Source: Ceratorhiza oryzae-sativae (taxonomy: Eukaryota; Basidiomycota; Agaricomycetes; Cantharellales; Ceratobasidiaceae). From it: a stretch of 64,000 nucleotides of DNA. Below are positions 12,496-25,114 of this stretch, piece by piece. The translations under genes and the position numbers were made by a program. The first letter of the stretch is position 1, and each line of letters begins with the position of its first letter. The stretch spans positions 620,001 to 684,000 of the forward strand of contig JARWMV010000247.1 of the NCBI GenBank assembly GCA_030998015.1, given 5' to 3'. Below the pieces are notes generated by a model that worked only from the letters and a program-made list of their open reading frames with translations, ran no database searches and was not told where the DNA came from.

Positions 12496-13484
12496 AGAGA
12501 TGTCGTGCCAGACTCCGTCTGCCAGAATCTGCCAGAATTTCCGGCCTAATTTCCGGCAATGCAGGAGCCGGAGACGGAGCAGGAATCAACCAACACCGCC
12601 AGACTCCGTCACAGGCTCCGTCACATTCCTCCAACTGGCATTCCGGCATTCCAGCGCATTCCGTGTTCTGGCATTCTGGCATTCTGGCGTGTTCCACATT
12701 TCTGGCATTCTGGCACACATTGTTCACTTGTTCAAACATTCTCATGTATCTGTGATGGTGCTATATACTGTCATAAATTCACTGCATTTGAATCAAGTAC
12801 CAATAACAGACTTGTTCTGACAATACCCTTAAACAACAGATGTGTCAACAAGAGGTCTTATGATCCCGTGTAGTTACGATGTTGAGAAACAGTTGTAGAT
12901 TCAATTGAGCACACACAATCATAAGATATAACATCACATGAAACACGCCAGAACACATTCAAAACCAAGAAAATGCTTGCACAGAACACAGGCTGGCAGA
13001 CACGGAAGAAACAGATAATGTCGGAAACACGTGACCCTATCTCACATTAGTTAGACTACAACGTCTAGTGACAACAAGGTGCTCATGCTTACCTATTACC
13101 TTGCTTAAAGCACTAGCAACGTCGCTGGGCGAGAGTCACACTTGCCAGGGCGCTGAGCGTAACAAACGCAAACAGCTGACTTCATTCGACGAGCACTATG
13201 CTTCCTGGCAGGCAGTCCCTGGGTGCTGAGAAGTGCTGGGGTGATAGAAGTGGAGGAGGCAGCTGGCATGTATGCCAATGGTCGAGAGAAAGAGATAAAC
13301 TGTCTGAAGATTTTGTAAGTTGGTTTTGTACCAGTTGTTGACCCACACTACTGGACTGTGTCCTGAAGAAGCTGCCAAAGACATGCAGTAAGAATGTTAG
13401 TATTATAGTACAATGTTTGGAGGCTATAAAAAGGACATACCAGCTTGCACAATTGTGTGTGCAACCATGGCAAATGTTGAAAGG
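12496..13484. other. hAT 3' subterminal region, non-coding
   Basis: Left arm of the hAT element as far as the Gypsy insertion site. It holds TGCCAGAA/TTCTGGCA and GACTCCGTC words up to about 12,750, then AT-rich sequence. Open frames here are low-complexity translations of these repeats. Confidence 0.5.
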
Positions 13485-14264
13485 TGTTATGACCCGCCTA
13501 GCAGACATAACCTAACAACCGAATATTGTACAGATTTATGGCATTTTTCCCGAAGCGGAACAAACCATAAACAGGATCATGTGATCTTGGCGCTTACCCA
13601 ATGATTAAGTGCTGGTGGTTACCCTGAACTCGCTCCAGCATTTCTCTCCCATGTTACCTGGAGCGAGGAGCGAGTTGTCATGTGACCTCAGCGCTTACCC
13701 AATGATTAAGTGCTGGTGGTTACCCTGAACTCGCTCCAGCATTTCTCTCCCATGTTACTTGGAGCGAGGAGCGAGTTGTCACGTGACCTCAGTGCTTACT
13801 CAGTGATCAAGCGCCAGTGGTTACCCTGAACTCGCTCCAGCATTTCTCTCCCATGTTACTTGGAGTGAGGAGTGAGTTGTCACGTGACCTTGGCACTTAT
13901 CCAGCGATTAAGTGCCGGGTGCTTAAGTCCAAAAGTCACATGACCCTTGGACCTCGCGCGGCTCTATAAGATTTGGAGCCACACAAACTTAGGATAAACA
14001 ATTACCTAAGACCTAGTACTATATAGAACCTATAACTGCTATAGATGGCGCTTAGGAAAGGGGGGCCACCGCAGCAACTGCAGTCACATGTATATAAGGG
14101 GAGTAAAGCAAGACTGAACGCCTCAGCTTGCTTTATCTTGTCAACCACCATAGACCATAGCAAACACTGTAACTAGAACACTCAATACATACTGCATAGC
14201 ACCAAACCATCAACGCAGCCACTACTTAAGTGCTCCACAAGGGAGCCTCCAGAGGGTCACGACA
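13485..14264 (+). repeat. 5' LTR
   Basis: 780 bp starting TGTTATGACC and ending GGTCACGACA. It contains three tandem 101-bp units (starts 13,591, 13,692 and 13,793) each with a palindromic TCACGTGA-type site, then a TATA box at 14,091-14,097. The transcript start is predicted about 30 bp later, near 14,125, where AGCTTGCTTTAT matches the primer site in reverse complement. A 9-bp hairpin TAAAGCAAG/CTTGCTTTA spans the predicted start. Confidence 0.93.
14091..14097 (+). promoter_or_regulatory. LTR TATA box
   Basis: TATATAAG sits 28-34 bp upstream of the predicted 5' end of the genomic RNA (about 14,125). The same box is in the 3' LTR near 24,269. Confidence 0.7.
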
Positions 14265-14266
14265 TT

Positions 14267-14278
14267 ATAAAGCAAGCT
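14267..14278 (+). promoter_or_regulatory. Self-priming primer-binding site
   Basis: ATAAAGCAAGCT, two bases after the 5' LTR, is the exact reverse complement of AGCTTGCTTTAT at 14,125-14,136 in the LTR, where the transcript should start. I see no match to a tRNA 3' end. This matches the self-priming arrangement established for Tf1 and the sushi group, where the 5' end of the mRNA folds back to prime minus-strand DNA. Confidence 0.75.
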
Positions 14279-14385
14279 CTTAACTTAACTAGTGGCGAAC
14301 ATAAATATACTACACAGATACTAAGGGCTGAGTACACGAGAAAACCAGCTAACTCCTGTGATACATAAGAGAACATAAAGAAACT

Positions 14386-16221
14386 ATGTCACAGAGACCA
14401 CAAACTCGATCTCAAAGCAGAGTGGCAAATAGTAGGCCACAATCACCCAAACCCATTGCTTCCCCAGAGGCTGAAGGTAACCCAGATGAGACCCTCCAAG
14501 GAATGCCAGGGGGGTTGCCACAAAACCCATGACCAGTGGCTCAACCCAACCCCACTCGGGCCCCCATCCTGGGAGGGGAAATAGGGGGAATACCACTCCG
14601 CAGCCCTCAACCACCAATTCACCTGATAAATCCAGACCCAGAAGATATCTCAAATCCAGAGAGGGATGAGGTAGAAGATATGACCCGAACCATATATGAA
14701 CAAGGCACAGCCTTGGCAGAAGAGGCAAGGACACAACCCCAGCCAGGTCCCAGAGCCATAGCCACTGCCAACCCTATTCACACCATTGCCATGGCCATCA
14801 GGGTGGGGCTCAAGGAACTTAGAGACAATAATCATAGGGAACTAGAAAAGGCAATCACAGGTATAAATCAGTGTCAAATATCACTAACCCGACAAGAAGG
14901 AAATGTGGACTGGATGGTAAGGTCAATGGAAACATCCAACAAAAATGTCCTCTATGTGGCAAAGAACCAGGACGACCTAAAAGCAGAAATGGGGAACCTG
15001 ATAAAAGAATTAAAGGACATCTCCATGGAAATAAACCAGGTACTGGGAATGCAAGAGCGAAAGCTCGAAAGCTTAGAGAAGAAAACCGAAAACACAGGGG
15101 AGATCCTAATCGCACTAGAACAACAGGTAACCGATCTAGGAAATGAGCTCCGGAAAACAACTGAAGCAGGAAGGCCAAGGGAAAGGACAGAAGAAACCAG
15201 GGGAAGAACTAGGGTGGTCATAGGAAGCCCCTCACGATCCCCCTCAGCCTCCCCAGTACGAACACCCTTTCTGGGAAGAACCTTCCAGGCTGAGTCCACA
15301 ATAAGACCCCGAACAGAACCTCCATCCCAAGCAAACCAACCTACCCTTGCTGCAAACCACACTCCTAAGGAGGCGAGACTAGGGAGACCCAGCAAATTTA
15401 ATGGGAAAAAGGGGAAGGAAGCAGAGAACTTCATAATCAGCATGGAACTTTTCTTTGCTGACTATGACAAATCAGCCTTTGATGACCAAAAAAAGATATC
15501 TGCTGTGCTAATGAACATGGAGGATGGGGAAGCAGCAAACTGGGCACAACCTTACTGCTGGAAACTACTAGCAGGCGAACACACAGGTATTCTTGCATCC
15601 TGGAAGGATTTCAGGAAGGGATTCCTGGATGCTTTTAATGACCCAGTCATAAAGGAAAAGACCATCTGGAAACTAAGGAAATTAACACAGACCAAGAGTG
15701 CATTGGATTATGCTACCCAATTCCAGATCCTGATCCAAGAGGTAGACTGGAACCAGGAAGCCCTCAAGGACCAATTCAGGGAAGGGTTAAAACCTGAAGT
15801 ATGACAAGAGATCTTAAGGATTGAAGTACTGGCAAATGAGGCTGAAGGTCCATCATATACCTTAGATCAATTAATTGACTTTGCCTGCAAAATGGACGAC
15901 ATGCAGTTTGCGAACCAGAAAATGAATACAAGGACCAGCAACTCATCAAATTCAACCTGGGCACCAGCAAAATACAAACAAGGGGGGAACAAGCCTTTAG
16001 GGACCAGCAGCAAACAGGGGAATACCCAAACCAACAACATGGTAAGGATACCAAACAGTGAAAAGGACAGGTGAAGGAAAGAAGGACTCTGTATCAAATG
16101 CGGTAAATCAGGGCATGTCCTGAAGGAGTGCCGAGGCCAGTGGACCTACGACAAAGCTAAGATACAAGGGAAGGCCAGCAGACAAGTTGAGGAAGAAAGC
16201 AGCTCTGAGTCGGAAAACTAA
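14386..16221 (+). pseudogene. gag: Gypsy gag, three in-frame stops
   Basis: Nucleocapsid precursor. ATG 14,386 (MSQRPQTRSQSR) opens a frame that runs to TAA at 16,219-16,221. It contains a coiled coil near 15,040-15,170 (RKLESLEKKTENTGEIL), a basic Ser/Arg-rich linker (15,170-15,260), the retrotransposon gag domain (about 15,380-15,800, with FNGKKGKEAENFI and the KDFRKGFLDAFNDP block) and a CX2CX4HX4C zinc knuckle CIKCGKSGHVLKEC near 16,090. The frame is interrupted by TGA at 14,530, 15,802 and 16,072, each consistent with a C-to-T change in an arginine CGA codon. Homology is continuous across the stops, so this is a decayed gag rather than separate genes. Confidence 0.9.
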
Positions 16222-16238
16222 TTGGTCCTACCACTTCC

Positions 16239-19200
16239 ATGTTGGAGGACCCCAATATAACCCCTACCGCAGATGTATGTTACCTCAAGAAGTCTAGTAA
16301 TCAATCAATAATATACACTACGGTAGAGGGAATCATGGAACCAGCTAAGACGCTGATTGACTCAGGATCTTCAACCAACTTCATCGATAAGGCCTATTCA
16401 AGGGAAAAAGGGATTCCAACCACTCCCCTCAAACACAAGAAATCAATTGTGGCCATTGATGGAAATGAAATCAAGGATGCCATAGAAGAAAGGGCAGAAC
16501 TAAACATCGAAGTGGAAGGGAAGACACTAAAATGCTCCCTTTATGTAATGACCCTAGGTGACACAGACATAGTCCTAGGGAAAGAATGGCTTGAAGAAGC
16601 AGAACCTATCATAGATTGGAAAGACCTTACCATCTCATACCCAGATGAAATCAAGGCAAGGGCAGCAAGTGAAAGCCTACAAATCCCAGAAGAATTTAGG
16701 GATTTTGAAGACCTATTTGGGGAAGAAGGTTTCCGAGAACTTCCACCCCACTGAGGTAACCTAGACTTCAAAATGGACCTGATTGAGGGAGCAGAGCTGC
16801 CAAAGCCTGCAAAGAGGTACAGTATGTCGCCAGCAGAAACAAAGGCGCTCAGGGAGTACCTAGAGGAGGAACTAAGAAAGGAAAATAAGGCCCAGCCAGT
16901 CAGTTGTAGCTGCACCCTGTTTCTATGTGAACAAAGCAGATGGAGGGCTTAGGTTGGTAGTTGACTACCGTAAGATGAATGACATCACCAAGCCAGACAG
17001 GTTTCCACTTCCAATCCAAATAGAATTGATTGAGAGACTGAAGGATGCAACCATCTATTCAAAAATGGATGTTCGATGGGGGTTCAACAACATCAGGGTA
17101 AAAGAGGGAGACAAATGGAAAACAGCTTTCAGGACAGGAGAAGGCCAGTTTGAATGCTTGGTCATGCCATTCGGAGTAAAAGAAGGACCAAGAACCTTTA
17201 CCAGGTTCATGATGGAAAAGTTCTGTGATATAATAGACGATTATGTGGTAATCTACATGGACGATGTACTAGTGTTTTCCAGAAACAGGGAAGAACGTAC
17301 AACATGTCAGGGAAGTGTTAAGAAGAATGAGGGAAAACCACCTCTTCCTCAAACCACACAAGTGTCAGTTCTTTGTGAAGGAGGTAAGCTTCATTGGAAT
17401 TGTCATATCCCCAGAAGGGATATCAATGGAAAAGGAAAAGGTAAAGGCAGTTCTAGGATGGCCAGAACCTAACACAGTAAAAGAAGTCCAAGCCTTCCTA
17501 GGCTTCGTGGGGTTGTATAGAAGGTGGATAGAGAAGTTTAGTACCTTAGCCAAACCCCTCACAGATCTCACCCAAAAAGATGTCAAATTCCTGTGGGAAA
17601 GAAAACAACAGGAAGCATTTGAAGCTATCAAGGAAGCTGTAGCAAGAGAACCAGTCCTGATCCACCCAAACCCAAACAGGCCATACATACTGGAAACAGA
17701 TGCCTCAGGAGTGGCCATGGGGGCGGTACTAAGCCAAAAGGGTGATGACAACCAATTGCATCCAATTGCCTTCCTATCGAAGAGCTTCACCCCACCAGAG
17801 AAAAATTATGACACCTACGACAAGGAGTTGCTTGCAATTGTTAGGTCCTTAGAGCACTGGAGGTTATACTTAGAAGGGACAGAGGAACCTATTGTGATAT
17901 ACACTGACCATAGGAACCTCCAGTACTGGCAAAATGCCCAGATGTGGAATAGAAGGCATGCCAGATGGTATCTCACTCTGGCACCCTTCAATTTTCAGAT
18001 TGTGTATAGACCAGGGAAACTCTCACAGAAGCCAGATGCCCTTTCCAGAAGGAGCGACCATGGGGATACCCCTATGGAACCACAGATCATGATTCCAGAA
18101 GAAAGGTTCATAGGTTTCATGGCAGAAGTACAGGGGAATTTCTGGGAAGAGCTTAAAGAAGCTCAAGAAGAAGACGAATCTATCAGATCCTTAAGGCTGA
18201 GTGTGGCAAATAAAGAACAACTACCGCCCTCAGTACAGAAGGAATTTAGACGGTATGAAATGAAGGAGGGCCTATTAAGGTATGACGATAGGCTCTACAT
18301 CCCGGATGACAAGGACTTGAGGTTGAGTCTCCTTGAGGAGTGCCATGACGCCCCAGTGGCAGGTCATCAGGGACAAGCCCGAACACTAGAATTACTATCA
18401 AGGGATTACTATTGGCCAGGAATGAAGGCCCAAGTAAACCGATATGTGGAATCTTGTGAAACATGTCAAAGAAGCAAAGGACACAAACAAGGCACTCCCC
18501 TGAAGTCCTTACCAATCCCATGGAAACCATGGGCAGATGTCGCATATGATTTCATTGTCAAATTACCTGTCTCAAAGGGGTACGACAGTATCTTGACAGT
18601 TGTAGATCGCTTCTCCTGGCAGGCCCATTTTGTACCATGTCTGGAGAGCACCAATGCAGAAGAACTGGCAGAAATATTCATAAGGGAAGTATGGAGACAT
18701 CACGGGACCCCAGAAACCACTGTCTCAGACCGAGGGCCAACCTTTAACAGCCAATTCCTAAAAGCCCTATACAAAGGAATTGGGACAAAGCCCAGATTCT
18801 CCACTGCTTTCCATCCAGAAACAGATGGTCTGTCGGAAAGGACAAATCAATGGGTAGAAGGGTTCTTAAGAACCTTCTGCAATTATAGACAAGATGATTG
18901 GGTAAAATGGTTACCCATTGCCGAATTCTGCCATAACAACCACGTAAATGCTACAACAGGACAAACCCCATTTGAAACAGTATATGGAAAAAACCCAAGA
19001 TGGGTTGTCCGAGAGGGAGAAGAACCATCTGAGGCACCCGCTGCAGACAACATGTGTAATCAAATGGAAAAGGTATGGGATGAGGCAAGAGCCTCAATGG
19101 AATTACACCAACAAATGGAAAAGAAAGGGAGGGAATTCAAGGTAGGAGACAAGGTTTGGCTGCTCCTAACAAACCTCTCGTCCAAGAGACCCTCCAAGAA

Positions 19201-19644
19201 ACTGGACAAAAAAGGGGGGCCCTTTGAAATCACAGAAAAGATCTCATCCCATGCATATCGCCTGGACCTACCTAAAACCATATGTGTACACAATGTATTC
19301 CATGTAAATCTCCTCTGCCATTCACAGAAGATAAAGACTTCCAAAGAAGGCAGGCCAAACCACCACCAATCATAACGGAAAAAGGAGAGGAGGAATACGA
19401 GGTGGACCACATTGCAAATTATGAATGGCGGAATGGCGAGCTGTTTTACCAAATCAGATGGAAGGGCTACGACCCAATAGAAGACACAATGGAACGTGCC
19501 AGCAAGTTTGCTGACATGAAAGAGGTTCTAAATGACTTGCAAAGGCGCTTACCAGACGCACCAATGCCAGTCAAGACAAGTCAGCACTCAGGTGACTCGA
19601 AAGGCAGGCCAAAGAGAACCAAACGAGGATCTGGAAAGCTTTAA
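16239..19644 (+). pseudogene. pol: Gypsy pol: protease, RT, RNase H, integrase, chromodomain
   Basis: Starts at ATG 16,239, 18 bp after the gag stop and in another frame. Aspartic protease active site LIDSGSSTNF (near 16,350). RT from about 16,900, with VDYRKMND, the catalytic YMDD (near 17,255) and the thumb GWPEPNTVKEVQAFLGF. RNase H: TDASGVAMGAVLSQ, YDKELLAIV, IYTDHRNLQYW. Integrase: HH-CC zinc finger ending CETCQRSK (near 18,460), then the D-D-E core with VSDRGPTFNSQF and SERTNQW. C-terminal chromodomain at about 19,395-19,560 (YEVDHIANYEW...IRWKGYDPIEDTMERA). Lesions: TGA at 16,752, and frame changes near 16,885, 17,297 and 19,320. The chromodomain places it among chromoviruses, which target heterochromatin. 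Confidence 0.93.
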
Positions 19645-19730
19645 AAGGAGCCATCCAGGATACCCAAGAAAGGCCAGAGCCTGCTCTACCACCTCACTTG
19701 CACCACAACACACCTGCGAAACCCCAAAAC

Positions 19731-20551
19731 ATGCCTTTTGTCACTCACCCAGTCACACATCCCAACCGTTACACCCCACTTGCTGAAAATCAGGTGGCCC
19801 CACTTTGGCAGCCACCCACCACCAGGTGGCCAGCACCCTACCCTGGCAGGGAAAATCGTCCTAAACCAGGGATGTACTGCTCCAGTGTGGAAGACGCGCA
19901 GAGGTACGCCAAACGACTGTTGCCAGGGGCTAACCTAGTGTACATCCCAAAGAAGTTAAGGGATGAAAGGAACTGGATTGATGATGACAAGTACCTGGAT
20001 CCCAGGTTAGGGGTCCTGACATGGCATGGAAGCCAGAAGCCAACAATGAGAAACGCCTTGTTAAGAACACCGATGTATGTCATCGACAATATCATGGGAC
20101 CAACAGTCAACGTGGTGACCAAGGCAGCAAGACAACAGAGGAGGGCCACAGGCCAAATGGCAGACAGAGGGGACTGGGAGGTGGAGCGCCGGGCAAAGGC
20201 ATTGCTGGAAGAATGGAAGTTGACACCAGCTGCACCATATGTGGGACTGCTGAAGCAACTACCACTGATGAGATGTTTACTGCTATCAGGACGAAGCAGG
20301 CAAACATGAGTGACTTCCGAAATTGGGTGAAGGTGCACCCAAACAAAAACACCAATTATGACACTGATATGATGAGCCTTACATCAAGCCTAGAATCACT
20401 GGTCGTGGCTGAGGAAGAAGCCAAGCCAGAAATAAAGGAACCCACCCTGGACCCAGCTGCGGAGGAAGCCAAACAGGACTGGGACTGGTGGGAAAATGAG
20501 CTTGTCGAAGCTCTGGAGGAGGTGCCACTGTTGGAACCAACCCCCATATGA
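19731..20551 (+). CDS. ORF-X, unrecognised cargo protein (probable frameshift)
   Basis: Sense-strand frame downstream of the chromodomain. The first part (19,731 to about 20,240) is proline-rich, then has a compact-looking block with PKPGMYCSSVEDAQRYAKRL, KLRDERNWIDDDKYLDPRLG and a basic ARQQRRATGQMADRG stretch. After a probable frame change near 20,240 the C-terminal part continues with MSDFRNWVKVHP and a very acidic tail, ending WDWWENELVEALEEVPLL at a stop by 20,551. No family recognised; not part of standard Gypsy pol. A capsid or accessory protein is possible but unsupported. It converges with the antisense gene, with stop codons about 80 bp apart. Confidence 0.5.
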
Positions 20552-20633
20552 CCACTTTGCCTCCCACAAATTGTCTCCCGAATGTATAAGAGTTTTATTT
20601 TTCTTTTACACACCAAACTTAATACATTTCCTT

Positions 20634-21175
20634 TTACTCTCTATTTTTACGTTTGCCCTTGAGGGGCCGGGTATAGGGCTTCTTGCCCCTTTTTTCCTTC
20701 TTATTGGTCTGAACAACTGACCGGGTAGTGGGCTGCAGCCAAGGAGCCTCCCCCCCTGGGAAGTTGGCCATGTAGTTCTGGAAACACCCAGAACCAGACG
20801 CTGCAAAGGGCGAAGCCTCATCAAACAAGGGAGCAGAGCCCTCCTCGAAGAATTCGGCAAGAGCGGCCTGGTGAGACCGCTCCTCAAAGGACTTGTAGTC
20901 CTGATCAATGAGCGCCCAGACACACTCAAGGGTGGCCTCATGGGCCCAACCATCAAGGAGGATGTGCTCTTCTACAGAACGAGTTAGCTATGTGAGAACA
21001 ATGAAGAACAAACACACATACCTGGCACCCCACAGAAGAACCAGTCCCCAACACCTCGATAGAAGTCTTCAAGGGAGGCGTCGCACACAGCATCACAGTA
21101 GGCGCAGTACTCCCCCTCAGGGAGAGACCAGCAGGTGCAGTCAAGGGGATTGTAGTTAAGGGAAATAACACGCAT
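20634..21175 (-). CDS. Antisense spliced cargo gene, 163 aa, unrecognised
   Basis: ATG 21,175 opens exon 1 (21,022-21,175), beginning MRVISLNYNPLDCTCWSLPE, cysteine- and aromatic-rich (EYCAYCDAVC, GDWFFCGVP). A 50-bp GT-AG intron (20,972-21,021: GTATGTGT...CTGTAG) is followed by exon 2 (20,634-20,971) with LLDGWAHEATLECVWALIDQ, an FEEGSAPLFDEASPF stretch and a strongly basic C-terminus KGKRKNRE. The spliced frame is uninterrupted, unlike gag, pol and Rep in the same element. An intron can survive retrotransposition here because it is antisense to the genomic RNA. No homology recognised. It points away from the Rep gene, giving a divergent pair around the 21.2-21.9 kb region. Confidence 0.6.
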
Positions 21176-21427
21176 AGTAAAGACGGGATGAGGAAGGAAA
21201 ACAACAAAACCACAAACATTAAAAAATCACAGTGCAACACAATAACTTGCACAAACATCAAAACAAGGTCTGGTCAGGTGACACCAACAGACACGTGACC
21301 ATCTGCCAGAAAACAAACAACAAAGCATGGGAATCACATGACCTAGCCTAGTCACGTGACCACCTGCCAGAAAACAAACAACAAAGCACAGGAATCACAT
21401 GACCTAGCCTAGTCACATGAATATACA

Positions 21428-21558
21428 CTATCCCCTAACTACCGGAGGGGTCGGAGAGGGGGCACCGACTGAAGTGGGGGAGCAGAGGCCCTGAGCGTAG
21501 CGAGGATCAAGGCCGACATGGAGGAACGGATGGGAGGGCACCCCTCGGAGATGCGTCA
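21428..21558 (+). repeat. Direct repeat copy A, cargo intergenic region
   Basis: Begins CTATCCCCTAACTACCGG and ends GAGATGCGTCA. It matches copy B at 21,688 across the full length, with scattered changes mostly of C/T or G/A type. Confidence 0.85.
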
Positions 21559-21687
21559 CAAGAGAAAGACATACAAGGACAAGCAAGAAAACAAACAAGT
21601 CACATGACATGAAGTGAACATGTGTCCCAAGCAGATGAAGAAAACAACAAGGTCACGTGACCCAGACAATGTCACATGATATGGCCG

Positions 21688-21819
21688 CTATCCCCTGAAC
21701 TACCGGAGGGGTCGGAGAGGGGGCACTGACTGGAGTGGAGGAGTGGAGGCCCCGAGTGCAGCAAGGTTTAAGGCTGACGCGGGGGAACAGATGGAAGGGC
21801 ACCCCTTGGAGATGTGTCA
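21688..21819 (+). repeat. Direct repeat copy B, cargo intergenic region
   Basis: Begins CTATCCCCTGAACTACCGG and ends GAGATGTGTCA. The partner of copy A, separated by about 130 bp containing further TCACGTGA-like sites. Confidence 0.85.
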
Positions 21820-21977
21820 TCACTGAAATAAGGTCATGTGATCACAACAAATGCAAGACGGAGTCATGTGACGATCAAAACGGACTTTGCAGCTTATATG
21901 GACAAGCACAAGGCCCGAGATAACCCGCACTCTCATGCTCTCTTCCCAGTCCCCAAATACCTCTAAAACTGTAAACG

Positions 21978-23264
21978 ATGCTAAGCGGAAATGGATCGAA
22001 CGCAGCAACACCCCAGCCAAGCGGATCAAGCAAAGGGCGGAGGTTGGCGTCACCATCGCCAGCGCCCTTGGTATCAAGCCGAGCCCCCTCGCCTGCTTCT
22101 ATGTGGCCTACGCCGACGGATCGAGGGTCCGAAGAGCTGACCGAAACCGCGCCGGCCCCTCGGTTCTGCGTCCAGACCAGGGTGGTGCTGCTGACCTGGT
22201 CGAAGCTATGCAATCAGCCCTCAAGTGGGCTTGTTGCCTGATACGAGGCGTTCTGCCACCAATGGCCAAATCATTGGGCAACTTTGGCAGTGGTGGAACG
22301 CCACAACCCCAAGGAACTGAACTACGACCCGGCCCAGCCCCTCCATGTCCATGCCCTCTCCATCAGTCAGGAGTGGAAGGGCGGCTGGAACACCCAGAAC
22401 ACCTGGTTCTGGGACTTCGAGGGGCAACACCCCAACATCCTGCTGAAGGACCTCAAGGACGGACCAGGAGGCAACCCTGCAAGGGAGGCTTTCAACTACC
22501 TCTGGAAGGATGTTGGAGCTAACGGCAAGGAGGTAGAGGAGCTGATGGCGGGGGACCTGACCTTGGAAAGGTTGGAGGAAATCCTGGTGAAGGGAAAGGG
22601 CAGGAAAAGGTTGAGGGCGGAGGTGGACCTGGAGGACGGGGTGGAGATTGTTGCCTCGGCAACAAAAAAAGAGTACTATCAGGCATTCAAGTGCTTGCGC
22701 CCCCTCCAGATGGTGACAACGTGGAACTCAGTACAAGCATATGCTGAGTACACGTATAAGGAGGACCGGGGATGCATGCCTGCAATCCCGGTGGAGTTGG
22801 AAGTCCCAGAAGACCAGGCACACATCAACAGGGCAGACTGATGGTTTGCAGAAGAGGCTGAGAAGAGAGGGAGGGGCATGCGCCATTGCATCCTGGTGAT
22901 CGAAGGCAAAACAGGAACTGGGAAGACAGCGTATGCGCGATCCAAGGGCTCCCATAGCCGGATGTGCAACGTCTGGAATGTGGGGAATCTGTCGGAGGAC
23001 GCTGACATCTGGATCCTGGATGACATGGTCCAGTCAAACAGGAAGTACTCGCTCAAAGCCCTGAGCCAGTACAAGGCAGACTTCACAGGCAGATATGCTC
23101 ATGTGAAGTCAATGAAGGTATGGCCGACGGTGATCCTGGGGAATAGCCAGTCAGCCATAATGAAGTGTTGGACAGACATAGAGGGGGAAGAAGGGGACTT
23201 ATGGGTATCCAAAAACGTAGACTGGGTATACTCAGGAGGGAAGCCATTTTTTGTTTTTCCTTAA
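21978..23264 (+). pseudogene. rep: Rep-like rolling-circle initiator (CRESS-DNA virus type)
   Basis: Replication initiators of geminiviruses and genomoviruses nick and join viral ssDNA with an HUH nuclease and unwind it with an SF3 helicase. All motifs occur in order in one frame. Motif I LLTWSK (22,188-22,205). Motif II LHVHAL with His-x-His at 22,344-22,352. A GRS-like block WFWDFEGQHPNI (22,404-22,439), close to the genomovirus form. Motif III YLWK with the presumed nicking Tyr at 22,497. Walker A GKTGTGKT (22,905-22,928). Walker B ILDD near 23,019. Motif C ILGN near 23,142. The frame is broken by TGA at 22,239 and 22,839, so this copy should not make a full protein. The N-terminus is uncertain: ATG 21,978 is in frame, but another frame from 21,935 carries a basic, NLS-like stretch. 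An AATAAA-rich tail follows the final TAA. GC content is visibly higher than in pol. Confidence 0.85.
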
Positions 23265-23374
23265 AAAATAAAAATAAATTATCTTTGTATAAGCTGTTTT
23301 ATTCACAGACCATGTGTCGAGAAGTAAGCTTAAACAAGGAAATAAGCAAGGAGAAAGTAATCTCATGTAGAGTA

Positions 23375-23469
23375 GAGGTTAAGGGGTCTAGCCTGACTCA
23401 TCATCTCCTAGCTGAGCAATTACACATCGAACGGAAGGTCATTGGTTCGAGTCCAGCGCCCTTAACCTC
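23375..23469 (+). other. tRNA-like inverted repeat with B-box
   Basis: Eleven-bp perfect arms, GAGGTTAAGGG and CCCTTAACCTC, enclose 73 nt containing GGTTCGAGTCC (23,444-23,454), an exact RNA polymerase III B-box. I could not fold a convincing anticodon arm or find a good A-box in the right place, so it is tRNA-like or a tRNA relic, not a called tRNA gene. It lies between Rep and the 3' LTR. Confidence 0.35.
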
Positions 23470-23547
23470 CTCGATATATGAGATACCTTTTAGAAACTTT
23501 TAGAACCCAGAAAAGAAACATGCCTTGAGATCCCCCAAGACATGTCC

Positions 23548-23561
23548 AAAGGGGGGGATAA
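23548..23561 (+). promoter_or_regulatory. Polypurine tract
   Basis: AAAGGGGGGGATAA lies directly upstream of the 3' LTR, the expected position of the plus-strand primer. Confidence 0.8.
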
Positions 23562-24442
23562 TGTTATGACCCACCTAGCAGACATAACCTAACAACCGAA
23601 TATTGTACAGATTTATGGCATTTTTCCCAAAGCGGAACAAACCATAAACAGGATCACATGATCTCGGCGCTTACCCAACGATTAAGCGCCGGTGGTTACC
23701 CTGAACTCGCTCCAGCATTTCTCTCCCATGTTACCTGGAGTGAGGAGCAAGTTGTCACATGACCTCAGTGCTTACCCAACGATTAAGCGCCAGTGGTTAC
23801 CCTGAACTCACTCCAGCATTTCTCTCCCATGTTACTTGGAGCGAGGAGTGAGTTGTCACGTGACCTCGGCGCTTACTCAGTGATCAAGCGCTGGTGGTTA
23901 CCCTGAACTCGCTCCAGCATTTCTCTCCCATGTTACTTGGAGCGAGGAGCGAGTTGTCACGTGACCTCGGCGCTTACTCAGTGATCAAGCGCCAGTGGTT
24001 ACCCTGAACTCGCTCCAGCATTTCTCTCCCATGTTACTTGGAGCGAGGAGTGAGTTGTCATGTGACCTTGGCGCTTATCCAGCGATTAAGTGCCGGGTGC
24101 TTAAGTCCAAAAGTCACATGACCCTTGGACCTTGCGCGGCTCTATAAGATTTGGAGCCACACAAACTTAGGATAAACAATTACCTAAGACCTAGTACTAT
24201 ATAGAACCTATAACTGCTATAGATGGCGCTTAGGAAAGGGGGGCCACCGCAGCAACCGCAGTCACATGTATATAAGGGGAGTAAAGCAAGACTGAATGCC
24301 TCAGCTTGCTTTATCTTGTCAACCACCATAGACCATAGCAAACACTGTAACTAGAACACTCAATACATACTGCATAGCACCAAACCATCAACGCAGCCAC
24401 TACTTAAGTGCTCCACAAGGGAGCCTCCAGAGGGTCACGACA
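23562..24442 (+). repeat. 3' LTR
   Basis: 881 bp, TGTTATGACC...GGTCACGACA. It has four 101-bp units from 23,668, one more than the 5' LTR, which exactly accounts for the 101-bp length difference. Most point differences between the LTRs are CG versus TG or CA. Confidence 0.93.
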
Positions 24443-25114
24443 AAACGCCTAGCTCTATTCAATAGGCTCAAACAGTGTATGTTAAGAAACAACTAAAGAA
24501 ATTACTAACCAATGTTGTCTGCACAAGGGCAGAAGCCACAACTGCGTTACACTCACAGGTAGCGCGCTCAGCTGTCCTGAGACCACAGCTGTTGAACAAC
24601 CGCGGACCCCCATTCCTTGTGTTCAACGTTTTTGAGCAGGAGCCCTACTTGGGCACAAGCACCCCACCCCAATCCTCAATCTAAATCAGGTCAGTGACGT
24701 ACAGAAGATTAGCATCAAGTATGCCCTACTAACCAAAGAGTGCAACCAACTATACAATACCTGACACCAATTGTGATGAAATTATGTGGCACTGGATTTT
24801 GCTGAGTACTCTGTTAGCCATAGTGACAAACATAGCGAAACCCTACTTACAAATGCAAAGAAAGAGCATCTGAGATGGGAGGAAGGATGATGGGAGCCCA
24901 AAACATGAGCAGGACAGAGGTTGTGGTATGTGTTGTGTCTCACACTGGTCACATGACCACATTTACTCACACCATATGAATCAGGGTTGGCAAATGTGTG
25001 GTCCTAAACATCAAAATTGTAGAAGGTTTGTATATTTGTGAAGTGTGAGCTGCAGACAGGTCATAAGAATCGTAAAGGATGTAAAAAAAAAGTTTAAAGA
25101 TGCAAGAGAGTGTG
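24443..25114. other. hAT transposase 3' flank
   Basis: Right-hand continuation of hAT sequence after the Gypsy insertion, downstream of the minus-strand transposase stop. Nothing coding recognised. Confidence 0.45.

Follow-up and report, generated by a model that had tools for sequence, protein, structure and literature searches.

Probable selected Rep-type cargo in a chromodomain Ty3/Gypsy LTR retrotransposon lineage of a Ceratobasidium-like fungus

Described systems and the host element in the window

Extra ORFs are known in LTR retrotransposons. LTR retrotransposons with a captured ORF3 after pol and insect retrotransposons with a viral SF1 helicase (PMC5408684, PMC6338049) share with the element reported here an accessory gene, viral in the insect case, placed after or fused to pol, but the accessible parts of these papers describe no HUH endonuclease combined with an SF3-type Rep. 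The nearest precedent is provided by the rotifer Terminons, giant Penelope-like retroelements that have accessory Rep proteins (PMC6431247), and the present element is therefore not categorically new. According to the available portion of that paper, Terminons likewise combine a retroelement with a rolling-circle Rep-type protein, and circular intermediates were suggested by its author; they are, however, telomere-attached, endonuclease-deficient and without an LTR integrase, whereas the element described here is an LTR Ty3/Gypsy element whose cargo appears to be a Rep of the geminivirus/genomovirus type. In the geminivirus-like transposable element of Tuber melanosporum, as presented in the accessible text (PMC3198968), a multi-copy geminivirus-like rep is also carried by a fungal mobile element, but by one with terminal inverted repeats, transposase ORFs and no obvious target duplications, and the word 'retrotransposon' is absent from the available main text. 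Among the titles and abstract openings listed by full-text searches of open-access papers, we found no LTR retrotransposon with a virus-type Rep. The novelty that an earlier note on this DNA had claimed for rep as LTR retrotransposon cargo is tempered by the Terminons.

The window is the whole stretch of DNA that was analysed, 64,000 nucleotides of contig JARWMV010000247.1 from Ceratorhiza oryzae-sativae (GCA_030998015.1). The rep-bearing element within it belongs to a chromodomain Ty3/Gypsy LTR retrotransposon lineage of a Ceratobasidium-like fungus (Table 1): paired LTRs with TG...CA ends enclose gag and a pol whose RNase H-integrase order and C-terminal chromodomain are as in Ty3/Gypsy (Pfam). 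As had been noticed earlier, rep is flanked upstream by integrase and chromodomain (Pfam matches to RT_RNaseH, Integrase_H2C2 and Chromo, with rve below the cut-off) and downstream by the polypurine tract and the 3' LTR, and its HUH motifs I-III, GRS-like block, Walker A and B and motif C do share one plus-strand register, although two in-frame stops make the window copy a broken one. Between pol and the 3' LTR the cargo block comprises orfX, a reverse-strand gene, a noncoding block and rep. Leaving aside 101 gap columns, the window LTRs are identical at 757/780 positions, and each of the 23 differences between them is a transition, a pattern compatible with methylation or RIP-type decay. Repeats of 101 bp lie inside both LTRs, with one fewer in the 5' LTR. 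An exact target duplication is absent in this copy, whose flanks read AAAGG and AAACG.

Table 1. Features of the rep-bearing element, in window coordinates.
Feature	Position	Strand	Remarks
5' LTR (TG...CA)	13485..14264	+	pairs with 3' LTR; 101 bp (one internal repeat) shorter
gag frame (Retrotrans_gag, Ty3_capsid)	14536..15804	+	Pfam
pol in pieces: RT, RNase H, integrase, protease-like frame (by position only)	16239..19375	+	broken in window copy
RT, putative	frame 16927-17472	+	
chromodomain, pol C-terminus	19375..19644	+	Pfam Chromo
orfX	19698..20551	+	split over two frames in window copy
reverse-strand gene, two predicted exons	20634..21175	-	open in window copy
conserved noncoding block unit 1, candidate cis element or origin	21421..21571	+	
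conserved noncoding block unit 2	21681..21831	+	
rep-like gene, first ATG 21978	21978..23264	+	in-frame stops 22239, 22839
motif I (LLTWSK) of rep	22188..22205	+	sequence
helicase part of rep: Walker A, Walker B, motif C	22878..23264	+	
polypurine tract	23548..23561	+	
3' LTR with 101-bp internal repeats	23562..24442	+	

Rep occupies the same element position in many insertions

Searching the fungus's own genome (48.8 Mb) with a 128-residue helicase-side piece of the protein gave at least 150 rep matches, the best 150 of 189 candidates being scored, and the best non-self matches were 94-95% identical. An open frame of at least 420 codons was present in 36 of the 150 scored matches (four of these 36 also list a stop inside the match), and a frame of at least 429 codons in 16 of 20 fetched 10-kb loci, which were picked mainly for intact frames and are thus not a random sample. 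This confirmed that the Rep-like frame is real, with intact copies elsewhere in the genome. Fifty database proteins match an intact copy at 48-81% identity, all of the named ones from Ceratobasidium, and the protein family has 83 database members.

The view that rep is cargo of the element was borne out by its linkage to the chromodomain. For rep and chromodomain alike the counts refer to the best 150 of more candidates: rep lay on the same strand 2-12 kb downstream of the chromodomain in 124 of the 150 scored chromodomain matches, and at 2.2-4.7 kb in 116 of them, while as controls it was found on the opposite strand in 4/150 and upstream in 3/150. In the other direction, a chromodomain was present upstream of 126 of the 150 scored rep matches, leaving 24 without a scored chromodomain. 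Three of the 26 chromodomain matches without a scored rep were read; in one, a degraded rep had escaped the search, and the other two appear to have been cut by other insertions. In 18 of the 20 fetched loci the pol side of rep is occupied by element sequence, which reaches the chromodomain or pol in 17 (in L018 it begins at orfX); the exceptions are L010, where another LTR lies directly upstream of rep, and L027, where the targeted rep has no matching upstream sequence and a second rep runs to the locus end.

Independent insertions with different target duplications, a check set beforehand, also carry rep at the same position: six of eight other copies have exact 5-bp duplications, all different (TATGC, TGCTA, CAGGG, CTACA, ACATT, CCTGA), one of the six (L014) with about 1.3 kb extra between the noncoding block and rep, and in the remaining two (L024, L011) the duplications do not match. 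These data show that rep sits at the same element position in many insertions and is moved by ordinary LTR integration, and a one-off insertion of rep is ruled out by the genome-wide linkage together with the target duplications. Two rep copies of different subfamilies lie a few kb apart in each of L017 and L027, and probably result from nested insertions.

Identity of the cargo protein

The protein family contains HUH motifs I, II and III and the SF3-type helicase motifs Walker A, Walker B and C, in the order I, II, GRS, III, Walker A, Walker B, C. Across the rows of the family the HUH residues are conserved in 52/55 and 51/55, the Y of motif III in 54/57 and its K in 54/62; the helicase part keeps GKT in 62-63/64, DD in 60/60 and 56/59 and N in 53/55, and the GRS residues between motifs II and III are G in 62/63, H in 57/63, P in 62/63 and N in 58/61. 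With a mean agreement of 0.69 between rows and query, the key residues of motif II, GRS, motif III, Walker A/B and C are near-invariant. Motif I varies most, with T in 31/51 rows and W in 36/51; of the 20 rows without its T, 16 are gene models in a different frame at that point. When residues 62-429 of an intact copy were shuffled 200,000 times, the ordered motif pattern, which was composed after the sequence had been seen, never occurred.

The motifs most strongly resemble those of a Botrytis genomovirus-like Rep, given in the accessible text as MLTYAQ, LHIHA, ...HHPNILPIR (GRS), YVGK, GDTRLGKT, IFDDI and FISN (PMC8309985), for which the element Rep has LLTWSK, LHVHAL, ...QHPNILPK, YLWK, GETGTGKT, WILDDM and ILGN; HPNILP in the GRS is common to both in a by-eye comparison. 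The GRS is a geminivirus motif that also occurs in genomoviruses and, according to the available part of PMC7468197, was not detected in cruciviruses. As far as the accessible descriptions go, the Reps of Genomoviridae and Geminiviridae show the same motifs I, II, GRS, III, Walker A, B and C in order (PMC8309985, PMC7468197), but the element Rep is very divergent, retrotransposon-borne and not accompanied by a detectable canonical nonanucleotide, and at about 428 aa it is longer than the 321 aa reported for the Botrytis agent (PMC8309985). Set against the viruses themselves, the locus is an integrated element in which no canonical nonanucleotide, no significant stem-loop and no capsid was recognised. 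Helitrons, for their part, encode a RepHel over about 1,500 aa in the description available (PMC6431247) compared with the 428 aa of the element Rep, and no Helitron or PIF1 match was among the families listed for it.

Profile searches gave a weaker signal. Eight of 33 family members matched Pfam Gemini_AL1_M, the best at E 0.0045 and 17.5 bits where the cut-off is 24 bits, with the match stopping at Walker A in the six placements shown, and Gemini_AL1 matched 1/33 (E 0.23); nSTAND3 matched 21/33, around the P-loop. Unrelated Pfam families reach similar E-values (Jiv90 0.0048, P53_TAD 0.0052) and the Gemini_AL1_M matches are below cut-off, so that alone they prove nothing, and because the scores fall under the curated cut-offs we call the protein Rep-type and do not assign it to Gemini_AL1 or Gemini_AL1_M. 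A PDB sequence search gave no match with the rep profile and two unrelated weak ones with a single sequence, and two poor AlphaFold models (pLDDT 35 and 51) gave no fold match at E<=0.001. No match was obtained in a Gemini_AL1 search of the fungus's own genome, nor in its control. As to bridging Reps, protein searches of viral contigs and plasmids found nothing Rep-like, and a degenerate Walker A pattern picked out 1 stretch in viral contigs and 8 in genome contigs, none of them Rep-like.

The absence of above-cut-off profile hits and of a confident fold match, and the similar scores of unrelated families, are what an unrelated P-loop protein with HUH-like motifs arising by chance would give. 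Seven ordered motifs whose key residues are conserved, together with the GRS-like motif located between II and III, argue against such a protein, which we consider very improbable. The cargo protein is very probably a Rep, judged from its sequence, and motif order and GRS point to the geminivirus/genomovirus type. The assignment to that type made in the earlier note is supported by the motifs, GRS included, but by neither an above-cut-off profile hit nor a confident fold.

Selection, gain and possible function of the cargo

Divergent subfamilies of the element have kept rep under long purifying selection. These comparisons took open pieces only, with stops skipped. Over rep codons 201-429, the comparison of subfamilies A and B gave omega values of 0.05-0.08 in 15/15 pairs (pN 0.047-0.068, pS 0.47-0.54); the earlier note had called for such a test across copies. 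Codons 1-190 have diverged recently between A and B (omega 0.27-0.58), and the value of 0.12-0.15 over the whole gene is a mixture of two mosaic parts, since identity profiles show that rep is mosaic through recombination, the break lying near codon 190-200. A or B against C gave pN 0.14-0.18 at near-saturated pS (0.74-0.79), and for the same comparisons the pN of pol (0.17-0.18) is like that of rep, whereas orfX evolves faster, with an omega of about 0.25 for A-B and a pN of about 0.35 in comparison with C. Five pairs within A and B gave omega 0.35-0.48, and two pairs within C gave 0.54 and 1.39 with wide intervals, values that fit old constraint followed by decay after insertion.

Many rep copies are broken, the window one included, and insertions of endogenous viral sequences, into host genes or into transposons, have been reported in several cases (available text of PMC3198968), as would suit an endogenised viral rep that was inserted once and then copied passively. 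Such a history predicts neither the omega of 0.05-0.08 between subfamilies over codons 201-429, nor the conservation of rep at near-saturated synonymous divergence, nor the retention of catalytic residues across species; dN/dS rules passive hitchhiking out, and we attach next to no probability to it. Rep is very probably a selected Rep-type cargo.

Rep is carried by older copies as well. In four of these (L050-L053) rep follows the same noncoding block, with rep segments 46-77% identical to the intact copy (tblastn), and LTR-like sequence follows rep in two of them, L050 and L051. A sister Ty3 element with 52% pol identity, identical 276-bp LTRs and a TTCTT duplication has its 3' LTR beginning 11 bases after the pol stop, and neither rep nor orfX was detected by tblastn in 7.3 kb of its pol and 3' side. 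Since this sister lacks the cargo, the approximately 3.9 kb were most likely gained in the rep lineage; that they were gained there and not lost in the sister is probable, and rests on one sister element.

In geminiviruses and genomoviruses a divergent reverse-strand gene lies across a noncoding block from rep. The ambisense layout of the cargo, with its conserved intergenic block, resembles that of a circular ssDNA replicon. The reverse-strand gene (163 codons plus stop, read from 21175 to 20634) has a predicted 50-nt GT-AG intron at 20972-21021 and a product whose C-terminus is basic, with K or R at 13 of the last 30 residues. The noncoding block of about 150 bp between this gene and rep is present once or twice per copy. 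Ten units, taken from the window and from seven loci that include older types, align over it; identity to subfamily C is 79% for unit 1 and 73-75% for unit 2, compared with 71% for rep DNA. The remaining part, orfX, is open over about 300 codons in other copies and is 36-50% identical between subfamilies (tblastn); Pfam gave it no noteworthy match, and a homologue search found nothing at E<=0.01. Since other Ceratobasidium do have rep homologues, their elements may be without orfX, or it may be unannotated there.

A hairpin origin in the noncoding block was considered and dropped. Both window units have a short CCCCT...AGGGG arm pair, but the arm is absent from older subfamilies, the DNA folds of the block are not better than those of shuffled sequences (z 0.06, -0.72, 0.27, 0.32), covariation is negligible (two-sided change in 1/30 predicted pairs) and no Rfam match was obtained at E<=1. 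The canonical nonanucleotide TAATATTA[CT] is absent from both strands of 13001-25000. The earlier suggestion that a replicon had been captured, which could provide a DNA-circle or rolling-circle stage, found no backing in either the nonanucleotide or the folding of the candidate origin block.

The best explanation that we can offer, put forward tentatively and at somewhat less than even confidence, is that a selected Rep cargo amplifies element DNA by rolling circle. A chromodomain Ty3/Gypsy lineage would have gained the cargo block between pol and the 3' LTR; Rep protein would be made from the element and would nick extrachromosomal (LTR-circle) element DNA at or near the conserved block; the nicked DNA would be amplified by rolling-circle replication, and the integrase would thereby be supplied with more DNA per transcript. 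That Rep acts on the element's own DNA at all seems to us evenly balanced. Rolling-circle amplification in particular is the favoured mechanism, if a slightly more tentative one than the explanation as a whole, as it would explain why endonuclease motifs, ATPase motifs and a nearby cis block are all kept. A retro-replicon, in which reverse transcription serves to make and move the DNA while Rep multiplies circles from the internal origin block before integration, is a more doubtful elaboration.

Selection on rep might alternatively reflect counter-defence, with Rep kept to hinder host silencing, DNA methylation or cell-cycle control and so raise element expression, its nuclease being unused on the element. 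Geminivirus Rep is reported to lower host methyltransferases (accessible part of PMC6338049), and the transition-only differences of the window LTRs (23/23) make silencing pressure plausible; a pure suppressor, though, needs neither the endonuclease nor the ATPase motifs that are kept, and suppression explains the selection but not the kept noncoding block. We regard counter-defence as unlikely. Less likely again is interference with viruses, whereby Rep would bind or nick the origins of circular ssDNA mycoviruses to the gain of host and element. The resemblance of the element Rep to Reps of fungal genomovirus-like agents suits this idea, as does the proposal, in the available text of PMC6338049, that retroelement-borne viral domains are antiviral, but no circular ssDNA virus of the host was found, and selection on a multi-copy mobile gene points more simply to an element function. 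If amplification of the element by its own Rep is the true function, a selected viral-type rolling-circle initiator would bring two replication strategies together within one LTR element and would be one route by which ssDNA-virus genes spread through eukaryotic genomes; Rep cargo may give retrotransposons a second way of copying DNA, and rolling-circle amplification of LTR circles becomes directly testable.

Several minor features accompany rep. Mosaic copies include the window (19648-23264) and loci L012, L016 and L022-L024; L012 and L024 are 63-79% identical over about 1.0-1.5 kb before rep (the ends of orfX and of the reverse-strand gene) and 71-89% identical from about rep nucleotide 600 on, the rest being 91-100%. 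In many copies the N-terminal part of rep is overlapped by a second open frame (21887-22522 in the window), and a related alternative-frame start (AYADGSRVRRAD...) is used by several gene models of Ceratobasidium AG-Ba. Selection on an overlapping frame there found no support, since the low synonymous change between A and B at the rep N-terminus is accounted for by the mosaic break. Also in AG-Ba, the C-terminal tail of protein P0029, for which tblastn reported no match to the reverse-strand gene at E<=1e-3, resembles by eye the basic tail of that gene's product, a hint that the reverse-strand gene may be close to rep in that fungus as well. Between rep and the 3' LTR, a tRNA-like stretch (23377-23467) on which ARAGORN and Rfam made no call has, by eye, a 9-bp terminal stem and a T-loop-like GGTTCGAGTCC.
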